From assembly GCF_030731045.1 (NCBI RefSeq), contig NZ_JAVALS010000001.1:560532-624531 (forward strand): 64,000 bases of DNA, given 5' to 3'. Within the stretch, counting starts at the first letter, position 1; each line of letters begins with the position of its first letter. This document shows, piece by piece, positions 29,987 through 35,643 of the stretch. The notes under the pieces are model-generated. The model did not search any database. It saw only the letters and a list, made by a program, of their open reading frames with translations, and was not told where the DNA came from. This DNA comes from Arthrobacter horti (GTDB lineage: Bacteria > Actinomycetota > Actinomycetes > Actinomycetales > Micrococcaceae). The position numbers and the translations under genes are program-made.

Positions 29987-30688
29987 CTACGCTTCTCCCT
30001 TGATCATCCGGATGAACAGTTCGTGAACGCGCAGCTCCCCCGTCACTTCCGGGTGGAAGGACGTGGCGAGAAGATTGCCCGAACGAACCGCAACAATTCT
30101 AGCCCGTGAATCCACCGTGGCGGCGGCAGGCATCTCGGCGGGCTCCAGCTGAGCGAGCACTTCGACGCCGTCGCCGATCGACTCCACCCAGGGCCCACGG
30201 ATGAAGACCGCGTGAACGGGGGCCACTCCGTCGCCGTCTCGCCCTGCGGAGAACTCCAGCCCGCCGAAGTCCAGATCCAGCTCGAAGGACTCGCGCTGAC
30301 GGCCGAAGGCGTTGCGCCGCACCGTCATGTCGATGCCGCCGAAGGTCTCCTGCGGGTGCCCGGAGAGATCGAGGGTGGGGTCCTGGATCCGGTCCGCCAG
30401 GAGGATCATGCCGGCGCAGGAACCATAGACGGGCATGCCCGCGGCGATGCGTTCACGGATGGGATCCGCCAGTTCGAAGGAACGGGCGAGTTTGTCGATC
30501 GCCGTGGACTCACCACCGGGGATGATCAGGCCGTCGACGGCGGCGAGCTCGGACGGGCGGCGCACGGCCACCGTCCGGGCGCCGAGCGTCTGGGCCGAGT
30601 GGAGGTGTTCACGGAAGTCGCCCTGAAGGGCGAGGACGCCGACGAGCGGGGAGTCCCCGGACGGCGCGGTACTGAGAGGATTCTGCAC
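29987..30688 (-). CDS. pdxT: Pyridoxal 5'-phosphate synthase glutaminase subunit PdxT
   Basis: PdxT hydrolyses glutamine and channels ammonia to PdxS for PLP synthesis. The 233-residue class I glutaminase has [29 protein letters not shown], the nucleophile Cys in [11 protein letters not shown], and the catalytic His-Glu in [10 protein letters not shown]. About 15 residues before GVLALQG are not conserved. The GTG at 30688 has no ribosome binding site; instead TACACT lies seven bases upstream, pointing to a leaderless mRNA. Its partner pdxS is about 5 kb away beyond asnB and dcp. The gene heads the pdxT-yebC-ruvC unit. Confidence 0.93.
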
Positions 30689-30695
30689 GTATTCG

Positions 30696-30701
30696 AGTGT
30701 A
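30696..30701 (-). promoter_or_regulatory. -10 element for a leaderless pdxT transcript (TACACT)
   Basis: TACACT on the minus strand ends seven bases before the GTG of pdxT, so transcription would start at or next to the initiation codon. No Shine-Dalgarno sequence is visible. Confidence 0.5.
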
Positions 30702-30787
30702 AAACGGCGCCCAGGACGCGTCTGCCGTGTGACATCCGCGACTCCGGCGCGCTCCCCGCCCTCGCCGGGCGGGTGGTCCCCAGCCGG

Positions 30788-30793
30788 TAGCAT
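30788..30793 (+). promoter_or_regulatory. Possible -10 of asnB (TAGCAT)
   Basis: TAGCAT lies 37 bases before the asnB ATG, preceded by GG. It fits TANNNT; a start around 30800 would give a leader of about 30 bases containing the AAAGGTG ribosome binding site. Confidence 0.35.
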
Positions 30794-30830: not shown

Positions 30831-33509
30831 ATGTGCGGAATCGCCGGTTACCACGGCTTTGGGGAGAACGCGGCGATGCTCAAGGCCATGAGCGCCTGCA
30901 TCGTCCATCGGGGCCCCGACGGCGAGGGCTACTTCACCGAGGCGAACGTGGGACTCGCGCACCGGCGGCTGTCGATCATCGACGTGGCGCACGGCCAGGA
31001 GCCGATGATCAGCGCCGACGGGGACACCGTTCTGGTCTACAACGGCGAGGTGTACAACTACCTTGAGCTCCGCGCCGAGCTCGAGGAGCTGGGCCGCGTC
31101 TTCCGCACGCAGTCGGACACCGAAGTGGTGCTCCAGGCGTATGAGCAGTGGGGCACGGAGGCGTTCGACCGTTTCAACGGCATGTTCGGCTTCGCCATCC
31201 TGGACAAGAAGCGGAACGTCACCGTCCTGGCGCGCGACCACTTCGGCATCAAGCCGCTTTACTGGGCCAATGTGGGCACGGACGCGGCCCCGAAGGTGCT
31301 CTTCGCCTCGGAGATCAAGCCGATCCTGGCCACCGGTGAGCTGAAGGCCGCTCCGAATGAGCGCATCCTCTACCGGTACCTGCAGTACCGGATCCACGAT
31401 GACAGCGCCGAGACGTTCTTCGCCGGCGTGAACAAGCTGATGCCGGGCGAGATGATGACCATCGACAACGCCACGGGCCGGTTCGCGATCGAGGCGTTCA
31501 CCCGGCTGCGCCAGGAGCTTGAGGAACTGTCCACGCAGAACCGCCCCTACACCCCGGAGGTCACCGAGGAGTACCGGCAGCGCTTCACGGAGGCCGTCCG
31601 CATGCGCCTGAAGTCCGAGGTCCCGGTGGGCTCCGCCCTCTCCGGCGGCCTGGACTCCTCCGCCGTGGTGGTCACCATCAACAAGCTCATGCAGGAGCAG
31701 GCCGAGGCGGTCGATTCGATCGGCGCCAAGCAGAACACCTTCAGTGCCGTGTTCCCCAACTCCATCAATGATGAGGAGCACTACGCGGACGCCGCGATCG
31801 CCAAGTGCAGCGGGAACATCCAGGCCCATAAGATCCTGCCGACTCCGGAAGGCTTCAACGAGGATCTGGACGACTTCGTCCGTACCATGGAGGAGCCGAT
31901 CATCTCCTCCGGCCCGTACGCGCAGTACTGCGTGATGAAGGAGGCCAGCAAGCACGTCACGGTGCTCCTGGACGGCCAGGGCGCGGACGAGATGATGGCC
32001 GGGTACATCCCGTACTACTTCGCGTACCTGCGCCAGCTGAAGAAGGCGGGCGACTACCGCAAGCTGTTCCAGGAGGCCGGCCAGTCCCTGGACATCTTCT
32101 ATCGGCTGGGCCGCTTCCGCCTGAAGTCCAAGCTCACCGCCAAGAAGAGCGTGAGCATGGGCCAGCTGCTGAACAAGGAGTTCACCTCCGGCCACCGCGG
32201 TGAGAAGTTCACCAACGTCCCGGACAACATGAAGCTGCGTCTGATCGACGATCTCTTCCACAAGTCCCTGCCATCGCTGCTGCGCTACGAGGACAAGAAC
32301 ACGATGCGCTTCTCCCTGGAGGGCCGCGTGCCGTTCCTGGACAAGGAAGTGGTGAAGTTCCTCTTCAGCCTCTCCGACGAGGCCATCATCAAGGGCGGCT
32401 GGAACAAGCGCATCCTGCGGGACGCCACCCGCGGCCTGCTGCCGGAGAAGATCAGCAACCGCCGCAACAAGATCGGTTTCACCACCCCGGAGGCGGAGTG
32501 GTTCAAGCTGATGAACGAGCGGATCTACAAGATCTTCATGTCCAACTCGTTCTACAACCGCCCGTACTGGAACCGCGAGGCCGTGTTGACCGCGTTCGAG
32601 GAGTACCTCAACGACAAGAACGACGCCGACACGATGATCTTCTGGCGTCTGATGAACGTGGAGCTGTGGTTCCGTGAGTTCATCGACCAGCCCGAGACCC
32701 CGGCGGACGTGAAGCTGAACAAGAGCGACTACGAGCCGAACCCGGGCAAGGAGCTCGCCATCGAGTCCGCCGGCTCCTCCTTCCTGCGCTTCCCGCTGCA
32801 GACCGAGGTGTTCGCCAAGGACACCGAGCTGGCGCCGGCCGTGGCGCAGTACCCGCAGCGCTTCTTCGACGGGCTCGACTCGGCCCCGGCCGAGGTCCGC
32901 GACGCCGTGACGGAGGCCCGCACCGACGGCCGCAAGTGGTACCTGCTGGTGAGCGAGAAGATCGTGGCCATCACCCAGGGACGCTCCTTCCCGGTGTGGG
33001 AGATCAAGGTCTCCCCCGCGGCCCGCGTGCTGAGCAAGTTCGTCACCCGTACCCCCGCCGGCATCGGCCTGGGCAGCCCCTGGTCCATGCAGATCGCCAT
33101 CAACGAGGTGGGCCTGCCCCTCATCGCGAAGGCGGCTGCGGCGTCCGTGGCGGGCAAGTTCCAGGGCAAGAGCGGCGTCTTCTATGACGTGGTGGGCAAC
33201 AACATCAACGCCATCGACGGCGCCACTCCGTACAGCCTGGGAGCGGCGAGCAACTCCGTGAAGCTGGCCCCTAAGGACCCCGAGGGTGTGGCGCGCAGCC
33301 TGAGCGCCGCCCTGCGGGCCGCCCTGCCGGCCAATGCCGTGGAGAACTTCGGCGGTGTGGCCATCATGGACGCGAACGACCTCGGCGTCGTGGTCATGGG
33401 CCACGACACCGTGCTGCCCACCGAGACCATTGCGGGCATGTTCAAGGACAACCCGCAGGGTCAGGGCGCCCAGGCGACTCCCATGTCCCTCGTGGTGACC
33501 GGGGCCTGA
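30831..33509 (+). CDS. asnB: Asparagine synthetase (glutamine-hydrolysing) fused to a CofE-like domain
   Basis: The 892-residue protein is far longer than usual AsnB (about 510-660). Residues 1-620 are a complete AsnB. Cys2 is the nucleophile (MCGIAGYHG), with [25 protein letters not shown], the PP-loop SGGLDSS at 271-277, and the EGRVPFLD motif. After a charged linker (about 624-650), residues 651-885 resemble F420-0:gamma-glutamyl ligase family (CofE/FbiB-like) proteins: [37 protein letters not shown] (789-797), [14 protein letters not shown] and [15 protein letters not shown] 30831 is fixed by the mandatory Cys2; AAAGGTG lies upstream. The AsnB part should amidate aspartate; the role of the C-terminal domain is unknown. 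No other F420 gene is nearby. Confidence 0.88.
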
Positions 33510-33630: not shown

Positions 33631-35643
33631 ATGACGAATCCGCTCCTGTCCCCCAGCACGCTCCCCTACGGACTGACTCCCTTCGCCGAGCTCACACCCC
33701 GGCACTACCGCGAAGCCGTGCTGCAAGGACTTCAGGAGCAGCGCGCGGAGCTTGAAGCGATCGTGGAGGATCCGGCCGGTGCCACCTTCGCGAACACGGT
33801 CCTGGCTCTCGAGGCGTCCGGCCGGCTGCTGGACAGGGCCCTCCGTGCCCTGGACACGGTGGCCGGGGCGGACGGCTCACCTGAACTCGACGCCGTGGAA
33901 ACAGAGGTCACCCCACTGCTGGCCGCCCACCGTGACGGTATCTACCTCAACGACGGCCTGTACCGGCGTTTCGCGGCCGTCGACGCAGGGTCATTGGCCG
34001 GGGAGGACCTCCGGTTGCTCGAGGAGTACCTGCGGGAGTTCCGGCTGGCGGGCATCGACCTGGGCGCCGGGGCCCAGGAACGCTTGAAGGCCGTCAACAC
34101 CCGGCTCTCCGCGCTCGGCACCGAATTCGCTCAGAAGGCAAAGGAGGCGGTCAACGCCGGGGCCCTGGTGGTGGACACGGAGGAGGAGCTCCGTGGGCTC
34201 GACGCCGACGCGATCCGGTCAGCCGCCCAGTCCGCCACCGATGCCGGGCACGAGGGCAAGTACCTGATCCCGTTGATCCAGCCGAGCAGCCAGCCTGCTC
34301 TGTCCGTCCTCGAAAAACCGCGGACACGAGCCGCCCTGCTGCGCAACTCCCTGGCACGCGGAACTCAGGACGACACGCTGGACGTGAGGGCGAACATCCT
34401 GGAGCAGGTGGCCCTAAGGGCGGAAAAGGCCGAGCTCCTGGGCTTCGAGAACTACGCCGAGCTGGCCGTGCAGGACCAGACCGCTCCCGGCCTGCGGCCG
34501 GTGCTGGAGATGCTGCGCCGGATGGCGCCGTCCGCACGCGCGAACGCCGGTGCCGAGGCCGCCTACCTGGCCGTCTCAGCCGGCGGGCCGATCACCGCAG
34601 CGGACTGGCAGTTCCACTCGGACCGGGTCCGCGCCGAACGCTTCCAGGTGGATGAGCAGGAGCTCCGGGCGTACTTCGAACTGAACACAGTGATCGAGCA
34701 CGGCATCTTCGCCGCGGCCGGCCGGCTGTTCGGGCTCCGCTTCACCGAGCGCTTCGACCTGCCCGCCTACCACCCGGATGTCCGGGCCTGGGAGGTGTTC
34801 GAGGAGGACGGCAGCCCCCTGGGCCTCTTCCTAGGTGACTACTTCACCCGCCCGTCCAAGCGGGGTGGGGCGTGGATGAACTCGCTCGTGGAACAGTCCA
34901 CCTTCGCCGGCACGCATCCGGTGGTGTTCAATACGCTCAATGTGGCCCGGCCGGCCGAGGGCGAACCCGCTCTGCTGACCCTCGATGAGCTCCGGACCGT
35001 GTTCCACGAGTTCGGGCACGCCCTGCACGGCCTGCTCTCCCGGGTGAAGTACCCCAAGCTCTCCGGCGCCAATGTGCCGCGCGACTTCGTGGAGTACCCG
35101 TCCCAGGTCAACGAGATGTGGATGTTCGACCCGGAGATCCTGGCGGGCTACGCACGGCACCACGAGACCGGCGAACCGCTGGACCCCGCCGTACTCGGGC
35201 GGCTGGAGGACGCCGCGCTCTGGGGACAGGGGTTCGGGACCATGGAGTACCTGGGAGCCGCTCTATTGGACCTGGCCTGGCACTCCTTCGGGGCCGACTC
35301 GGTTCCGGCGGACGTGGAGGCGTTCGAGCAGTCCTCCCTCGAAGCGGCCGGGCTGGCCTGGGAACTGGTGCCGCCGCGGTACCGTTCGGGTTACTTTCAG
35401 CACATCTTCGCGGGCGGCTGGTATGCCGCGGGCTACTATTCCTACATCTGGAGCGAGGTGCTGGACGCGGACACGGTCGAGTGGTTCCGCGAGAACGGCG
35501 GCCTGAGCCGGGACAACGGAGAACACTTCCGCGCCGAGCTGCTCAGCCGTGGCAACAGCCGCGACCCGCTGACAAGCTTCCGCGCCTTCCGCGGCCGGGA
35601 CGCCGACGTCGCGCCCCTCCTGAAACGCCGCGGCCTCGCCTGA
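33631..35643 (+). CDS. dcp: M3 family metallopeptidase, peptidyl-dipeptidase Dcp type
   Basis: The 670-residue cytosolic zinc peptidase has the active site FHEFGHALHG (HEFGH) followed by the downstream Glu in the segment RDFVEYPSQVNEMW. The latter is the Dcp-type signature, distinct from the OpdA/PrlC form. Other conserved blocks are NPLLSPSTLPYGLTPFAEL at the start and FQHIFAGGWYAAGYYSYIWSEVLD near the end. Dcp removes C-terminal dipeptides from peptides. It has no signal peptide. ATG with GAAAGG. It sits downstream of asnB behind a terminator, probably as its own unit, and converges on pdxS. OpdA remains a less likely alternative. Confidence 0.92.
   Translation: MTNPLLSPSTLPYGLTPFAELTPRHYREAVLQGLQEQRAELEAIVEDPAGATFANTVLALEASGRLLDRALRALDTVAGADGSPELDAVETEVTPLLAAHRDGIYLNDGLYRRFAAVDAGSLAGEDLRLLEEYLREFRLAGIDLGAGAQERLKAVNTRLSALGTEFAQKAKEAVNAGALVVDTEEELRGLDADAIRSAAQSATDAGHEGKYLIPLIQPSSQPALSVLEKPRTRAALLRNSLARGTQDDTLDVRANILEQVALRAEKAELLGFENYAELAVQDQTAPGLRPVLEMLRRMAPSARANAGAEAAYLAVSAGGPITAADWQFHSDRVRAERFQVDEQELRAYFELNTVIEHGIFAAAGRLFGLRFTERFDLPAYHPDVRAWEVFEEDGSPLGLFLGDYFTRPSKRGGAWMNSLVEQSTFAGTHPVVFNTLNVARPAEGEPALLTLDELRTVFHEFGHALHGLLSRVKYPKLSGANVPRDFVEYPSQVNEMWMFDPEILAGYARHHETGEPLDPAVLGRLEDAALWGQGFGTMEYLGAALLDLAWHSFGADSVPADVEAFEQSSLEAAGLAWELVPPRYRSGYFQHIFAGGWYAAGYYSYIWSEVLDADTVEWFRENGGLSRDNGEHFRAELLSRGNSRDPLTSFRAFRGRDADVAPLLKRRGLA

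Follow-up and report, generated by a model that had tools for sequence, protein, structure and literature searches.

A fused AsnB/CofE-like protein in Arthrobacter horti and the repeated loss of AsnB catalysis among its relatives

What does a protein do that joins an asparagine synthetase (AsnB) to a relative of the F420-0:gamma-glutamyl ligase CofE, in a genome where no F420 pathway was found? The question is raised by a stretch of 64,000 nucleotides from Arthrobacter horti (contig NZ_JAVALS010000001.1, positions 560,532 to 624,531), called here the window. The original prediction, made from the letters of the window, was of a single uninterrupted 892-residue frame, and translation gives 892 amino acids at exactly 30831-33509 of the forward strand. 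The gene, its parts and its two neighbours are these (positions within the window):

30831..33509, + strand: AsnB/CofE-like fusion gene, a single frame of 892 amino acids, stop included (translation)
30831..32738, + strand: AsnB half, residues 1-636, an N-terminal nucleophile glutaminase and an ATP-pyrophosphatase synthetase domain (TIGR01536, PF13537, PF00733)
30834..30836, + strand: Cys2, the glutaminase nucleophile, in the start MCGI (MCGIA), aligned across relatives
31641..31661, + strand: PP-loop SGGLDSS, residues 271-277 (alignment of relatives)
32739..33506, + strand: CofE-like half (F420_ligase superfamily), residues 637-892 (PF01996, profile, AlphaFold model AF2, Foldseek)
32952..32984, + strand: eleven-residue motif, residues 708-718, aligned with KVVSKAEGR of true CofE (alignments A1 and A3, hhalign)
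33216..33218, + strand: Asp796 in AIDG, invariant in alignments A1, A2 and A3
33369..33371, + strand: Asp847 in DANDLG, invariant; aligned by HMMER to position 150 of the 2g9i chain
33447..33464, + strand: DNPQGQ motif, residues 873-878, specific to the subfamily (NP-G invariant in A1, DNP-GQ in A3)
33631..35643, + strand: Dcp-like M3 peptidase, conserved co-directional neighbour downstream (NF007624 684 bits, under the cut-off of 944)
29987..30793, - strand: pdxT-like gene, divergent neighbour upstream, synteny conserved (list of open reading frames)

The Dcp-like peptidase gene stands beside the fusion gene in most of the Micrococcaceae loci examined. The pdxT-like gene is probably unrelated to it.

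The first half is a complete AsnB, as had been predicted from Cys2 and the PP-loop. It scores 411.5 bits against TIGR01536 (cut-off 267.1) over residues 2-550, it matches PF13537 (E 2e-44) and PF00733 (E 7e-66, residues 247-615), and Cys2, YNGEVYN and SGGLDSS are all in place. The Cys nucleophile and the PP-loop recur as in the window in 28 intact fused relatives, L083 having the variant SGGIDSS. The Cys2 glutaminase, the PP-loop and the other motifs are thus those of AsnB (TIGR01536; 1ct9). What sets the protein apart from that AsnB is its separate clade and, in the genomes sampled, its coupling to a CofE-like gene; any substrate assigned to it is putative.

The second half takes longer to place. 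It was predicted to be CofE-like and about 235 residues long. It is CofE-like, but its length is nearer 256 residues (637-892), and it starts at NPGK, which also opens many standalone relatives. Its sole match in Pfam is PF01996, the family that the original prediction had named for such a check, and the lone sequence matches it weakly (E 2e-4, 21 bits against a 25-bit cut-off). All 32 members of family alignment A1, which comprises the window protein and 31 relatives, match PF01996, the best at 1.2e-14. A search of the PDB with the lone C-terminal sequence returned no match, whereas the family profile found the CofE structures 2phn (E 1.6e-6), 7uld and 2g9i at E values of about 1e-6, and nothing convincing in the PDB other than CofE (the chains from A. 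fulgidus). Compared by hhalign with true actinobacterial CofE, the subfamily gives a probability of 95.7. The AlphaFold model of this half (pLDDT 87.6) has confident Foldseek matches in the PDB to CofE entries only (E 1.1e-6), and it aligns to 2phn over 184 residues with Z 13.9, 3.4 A and 20% identity. The agreement of profile, profile-profile and structural matches confirms the half as a homologue of CofE.

A homologue of CofE need not be CofE. The half shares with CofE and with the N-terminal domain of FbiB (PF01996, TIGR01916) the fold, a KxVxxxxGR-like motif, two invariant aspartates and an LxPxDPD-like segment. Asp847 aligns by HMMER with Asp150 of A. fulgidus CofE, and Asp796, as the hhalign alignment reads, is probably the counterpart of the aspartate in CofE's AGVDxSN. 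In the A. fulgidus enzyme, Asp109 and Asp150 are metal ligands. The motifs AIDG, DANDxG and DNPxGQ, however, differ from those of CofE and FbiB. True CofE continues for about 93 residues after Asp150, whereas the CofE-like half ends about 45 residues after the equivalent position, and it does not match the CofE equivalog model TIGR01916. The prediction of a CofE-like domain therefore stands at the level of profile and fold, while the proteins form a separate subfamily and are not F420 enzymes.

How widespread is the arrangement? Both fused and split versions, which the original prediction had advised looking for, occur in other genomes. In the Micrococcaceae, the family of the window, the CofE-like domain occurs in 45 of 197 genomes: 43 have the same single-frame fusion (frames of at least 889 residues), and the other two, which belong to one genus, have shorter frames. 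The fusion is found also in two more families of the order, f11 and f16, and, without the insert seen in the window's order, in two distant families of Actinomycetota (L079, L082, L083). The halves are separate genes in G447 and in a Thermoleophilia MAG (L118), where they abut or overlap by 4 bases. A single origin of the fusion was not rejected by a tree test (AU p 0.49), and I claim no independent fusions. Much commoner than pairing with AsnB are standalone CofE-like genes, found in Microbacteriaceae, Clostridia, the candidate phyla radiation, Chloroflexi and others. The neighbourhoods of 80 relatives gave no consistent partner gene for them.

Several of these loci may be put on record. In L093, L094 and L097 the CofE-like domain is fused to an apparently TPR-rich N-terminal region, and a divergent DD motif replaces IDG. 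In Microbacteriaceae the neighbours are sigA, a PAC2 protein and a convergent ATP-grasp gene: the CofE-like gene of L086:7863-9916 and of other Microbacteriaceae directly follows a gene that is sigA-like in L140 (with a 4-base overlap in L086), and a convergent PF14397 ATP-grasp gene is present in many of 19 such loci. In three Bacillota MAGs (L194:2773-5917, L157:5528-8705, L136:543-2334) the CofE-like gene comes after an AIR-synthase-like gene, related to ThiL/HypE/SelD and reaching none of the curated cut-offs; L194 has a pyruvate kinase gene ahead of the latter, their ends overlapping. A GlmS-like amidotransferase gene (glmS) lies directly upstream in the Oscillospiraceae loci L135, L138 and L185, and other CofE-like loci adjoin unrelated genes. 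G294 (L089, L110), L092 and L113 represent a further CofE-like subfamily, marked by GLSIPEKM and AMDG-like motifs, and the two copies of G294 lie on contig stretches of sharply different GC (0.68 and 0.40). Reading the long neighbours in candidate-phylum and Clostridia loci as cell-wall enzymes failed for most of them.

Then there is the fate of the AsnB half. Ten of 42 aligned proteins have lost AsnB catalytic residues, both Cys2 and the PP-loop and mostly other motifs too, and in two of the ten, from Micrococcaceae, the AsnB tail alone is left. All ten keep SEKxxAxxQGR, AIDG, DANDxG and DNPxGQ. The count leaves out L248 (G852, 2943975-2946703), in which both halves are intact in different frames, through natural fission or a sequencing frameshift. 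Mapped on the CofE-like tree, the losses amount to five changes, at least four of them forced by well-supported branches, and a topology with all losers in a single clade is rejected (AU p 6e-9). AsnB catalysis is thus dispensable in several lineages.

The two halves also diverge at different rates. For intact pairs from family f11 the AsnB and CofE-like halves are on average 80.7% and 79.0% identical, and for intact-degenerate pairs 34.3% and 66.5% (averages in which L248 still counted as degenerate but was mostly excluded by its short AsnB overlap). The ratio of dN in the AsnB half to dN in the CofE-like half is 2.6-5.8 where a pair includes a degenerate protein, and 0.6-1.4 where both are intact. 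For L078 and L250, dN/dS is about 1.0 in the AsnB half and 0.27 in the CofE-like half, by the method of Nei and Gojobori, whose synonymous estimates are approximate in such high-GC genes. In some pairs, then, the AsnB half drifts nearly neutrally. The retained motifs and the contrast in dN mark the ligase half as the activity under lasting selection.

I propose, in the belief that the chances are about even, that the fusion is a bifunctional enzyme of one non-F420 pathway, with a ligase at its core and, as an option, amidation of that ligase's substrate or product. AsnB forms an acyl adenylate and then amidates it with ammonia derived from glutamine. CofE uses GTP and two divalent metals to activate a carboxylate, and the amine of glutamate attacks the resulting acyl phosphate (PMC10861534). 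Put together, the two chemistries suggest ligation as the core step and amidation as an option on one molecule. The C-terminal domain would be the core, a predicted ligase that depends on a nucleotide and on metal. It would activate a carboxylate, probably as an acyl phosphate by analogy with CofE, and would join it to an amine, probably that of glutamate. With ATP and with ammonia taken from glutamine, the AsnB half would convert a carboxylate of that substrate, or of the product, to the amide. This tailoring would be accessory, and several lineages would have given it up. I infer CofE-like catalysis, the order of the steps, the shared substrate and glutamate as co-substrate, the last solely from the parent family. 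Amidation plus gamma-glutamyl transfer, as originally suggested, would still be a reasonable guess for the fusion. The CofE-like chemistry could have changed, however, since much of CofE's C-terminal segment is missing.

A broader reading I put forward tentatively, as somewhat short of an even chance. The widespread CofE-like family (that of the candidate phyla radiation, Clostridia and Actinomycetota) may make an amide-linked metabolite or envelope conjugate that is neither F420 nor folate; in Actinomycetota AsnB would amidate it, the fusion would link the two steps, and repeated loss of AsnB would mark amidation as variable. That AsnB is repeatedly discarded while the ligase is kept points to an undescribed amide-forming reaction.

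Must the two halves share a substrate? A fusion need not imply it, because standalone genes are widespread and have no consistent neighbour. Both halves could be active in unrelated pathways, one making an amide (asparagine or another) and the other carrying out a separate ligation, and the loss of AsnB catalysis is compatible also with two unrelated functions that were merely fused. I consider this unlikely, short of dismissing it. In a search with the AsnB half alone of 396 genomes of the phylum, the matches listed below 1e-100, besides the window's, were in G249, G261, G447 and G530, and each of these four has its AsnB fused to a CofE-like gene or right beside one. The next match listed (7e-98, 37% identity) comes from a genome in which nothing CofE-like was matched. 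A tree groups the fused with the split AsnB proteins in a single clade (SH-aLRT 100) and places 13 other AsnB-like proteins outside it. So strict a coupling of an AsnB subfamily is unusual, and it occurs both as fusion and as adjacent genes over a large phylogenetic distance, which argues against unrelated pathways. The sample is small, so I claim strict coupling within the sampled genomes only. The one known exception, G641 (C1:1888478 and C1:2373816; L267, L275), has a degenerate-AsnB/CofE-like protein and, 485 kb away as a separate gene, an intact CofE-less AsnB of the same clade. Two functions lying so far apart favor separate pathways, as does the wide standalone distribution of the CofE-like family; the arrangement itself looks like a division of labor after duplication or fission, that is, subfunctionalization.

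The bifunctional enzyme that I favor might take a particular form, in which the AsnB half amidates a wall precursor and the CofE-like half adds an amino acid to that precursor, so that the enzyme would modify peptidoglycan. There is precedent, for LtsA and Listeria AsnB are AsnB-type amidotransferases established as acting on peptidoglycan mDAP (PMC8554201, PMC7920481), and the repeated AsnB losses would be consistent with amidation that differs from one species to another. In G447 and the Thermoleophilia MAG, the split pair has on one side a ProC-like gene followed by a short ORF and on the other divIVA, which is a setting of division genes. The context in Micrococcaceae, including the window, is different (pdxT, Dcp), and the neighbours of CofE-like genes elsewhere are not consistently cell-wall genes. 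Nor was any close relationship to the known amidotransferases seen: the fusion AsnB is only about 32% identical to AsnB-like proteins of actinobacteria in families f18 and f19, which fall in a different clade, and it stands apart from the 13 others sampled in the tree, none of them a named LtsA. I therefore think the form possible but doubtful.

It is rather improbable that the protein is an ordinary asparagine synthetase with a CofE-derived regulatory or scaffold domain, non-catalytic and sensing a nucleotide or glutamate. The AsnB half does pass the asparagine synthase equivalog cut-off, and in its own genome, where the fusion gene matches at 100%, no other AsnB-like match is strong. One would not expect a regulator to outlast its target, though, and here it is AsnB catalysis that is lost repeatedly in sister lineages, whereas the motifs of the CofE-like half persist and its dN stays low. 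Standalone CofE-like proteins are, moreover, common without any AsnB. The regulatory role once suggested for the second domain is disfavored accordingly.

An F420 or folate gamma-glutamyl ligase with AsnB attached is very improbable, for all its homology to CofE. The original prediction saw no F420 genes in the window, and the absence extends to the genome (93.85% complete): TIGR01916 finds no CofE there, though it matches in 34 of 60 genomes of the phylum, and the search for CofD gave nothing above cut-off (19.5 bits at best, against 257). These two negatives reject an F420 role or make it unlikely. In G249 and G261 the fusion occurs alongside a true CofE. In CofE, Arg234 stacks on F420 (PMC10861534); the structural alignment stops at CofE residue 222, opposite the last residue of the model, and the segment of Arg234 is absent. 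As for folate, the Chlamydia protein CT611 (FolC2, COG1478), a CofE homologue, complements an E. coli folC strain (PMC1971073), so that CofE homologues can serve pathways other than F420, as is proposed here. CT611 is, however, standalone beside folate genes, while the window's genome has a normal FolC (343.7 bits), which makes a folate role unlikely.

That an assembly or sequencing error joined two genes, which was to have undone the original prediction, is as good as impossible, with nothing found in its favor and the same frame in dozens of genomes and the same architecture at 92% identity in three of the same genus.

Both parent families are known. As far as I have checked, the architecture, the subfamily's independence of F420 and the decay of one half are undescribed, and a search of the literature outside most subscription journals found no paper on the fusion. 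Because they match the F420 ligase family, genes of the CofE-like subfamily are apt to be annotated as F420 genes, yet those examined are independent of such genes. With AsnB, whether fused or in the split pair, the CofE-like family gains a first functional partner. The lineages that have lost AsnB catalysis are natural mutants, in which the product can be sought by comparing intact with degenerate species, and the function of a widespread F420-ligase-like family thereby becomes testable.
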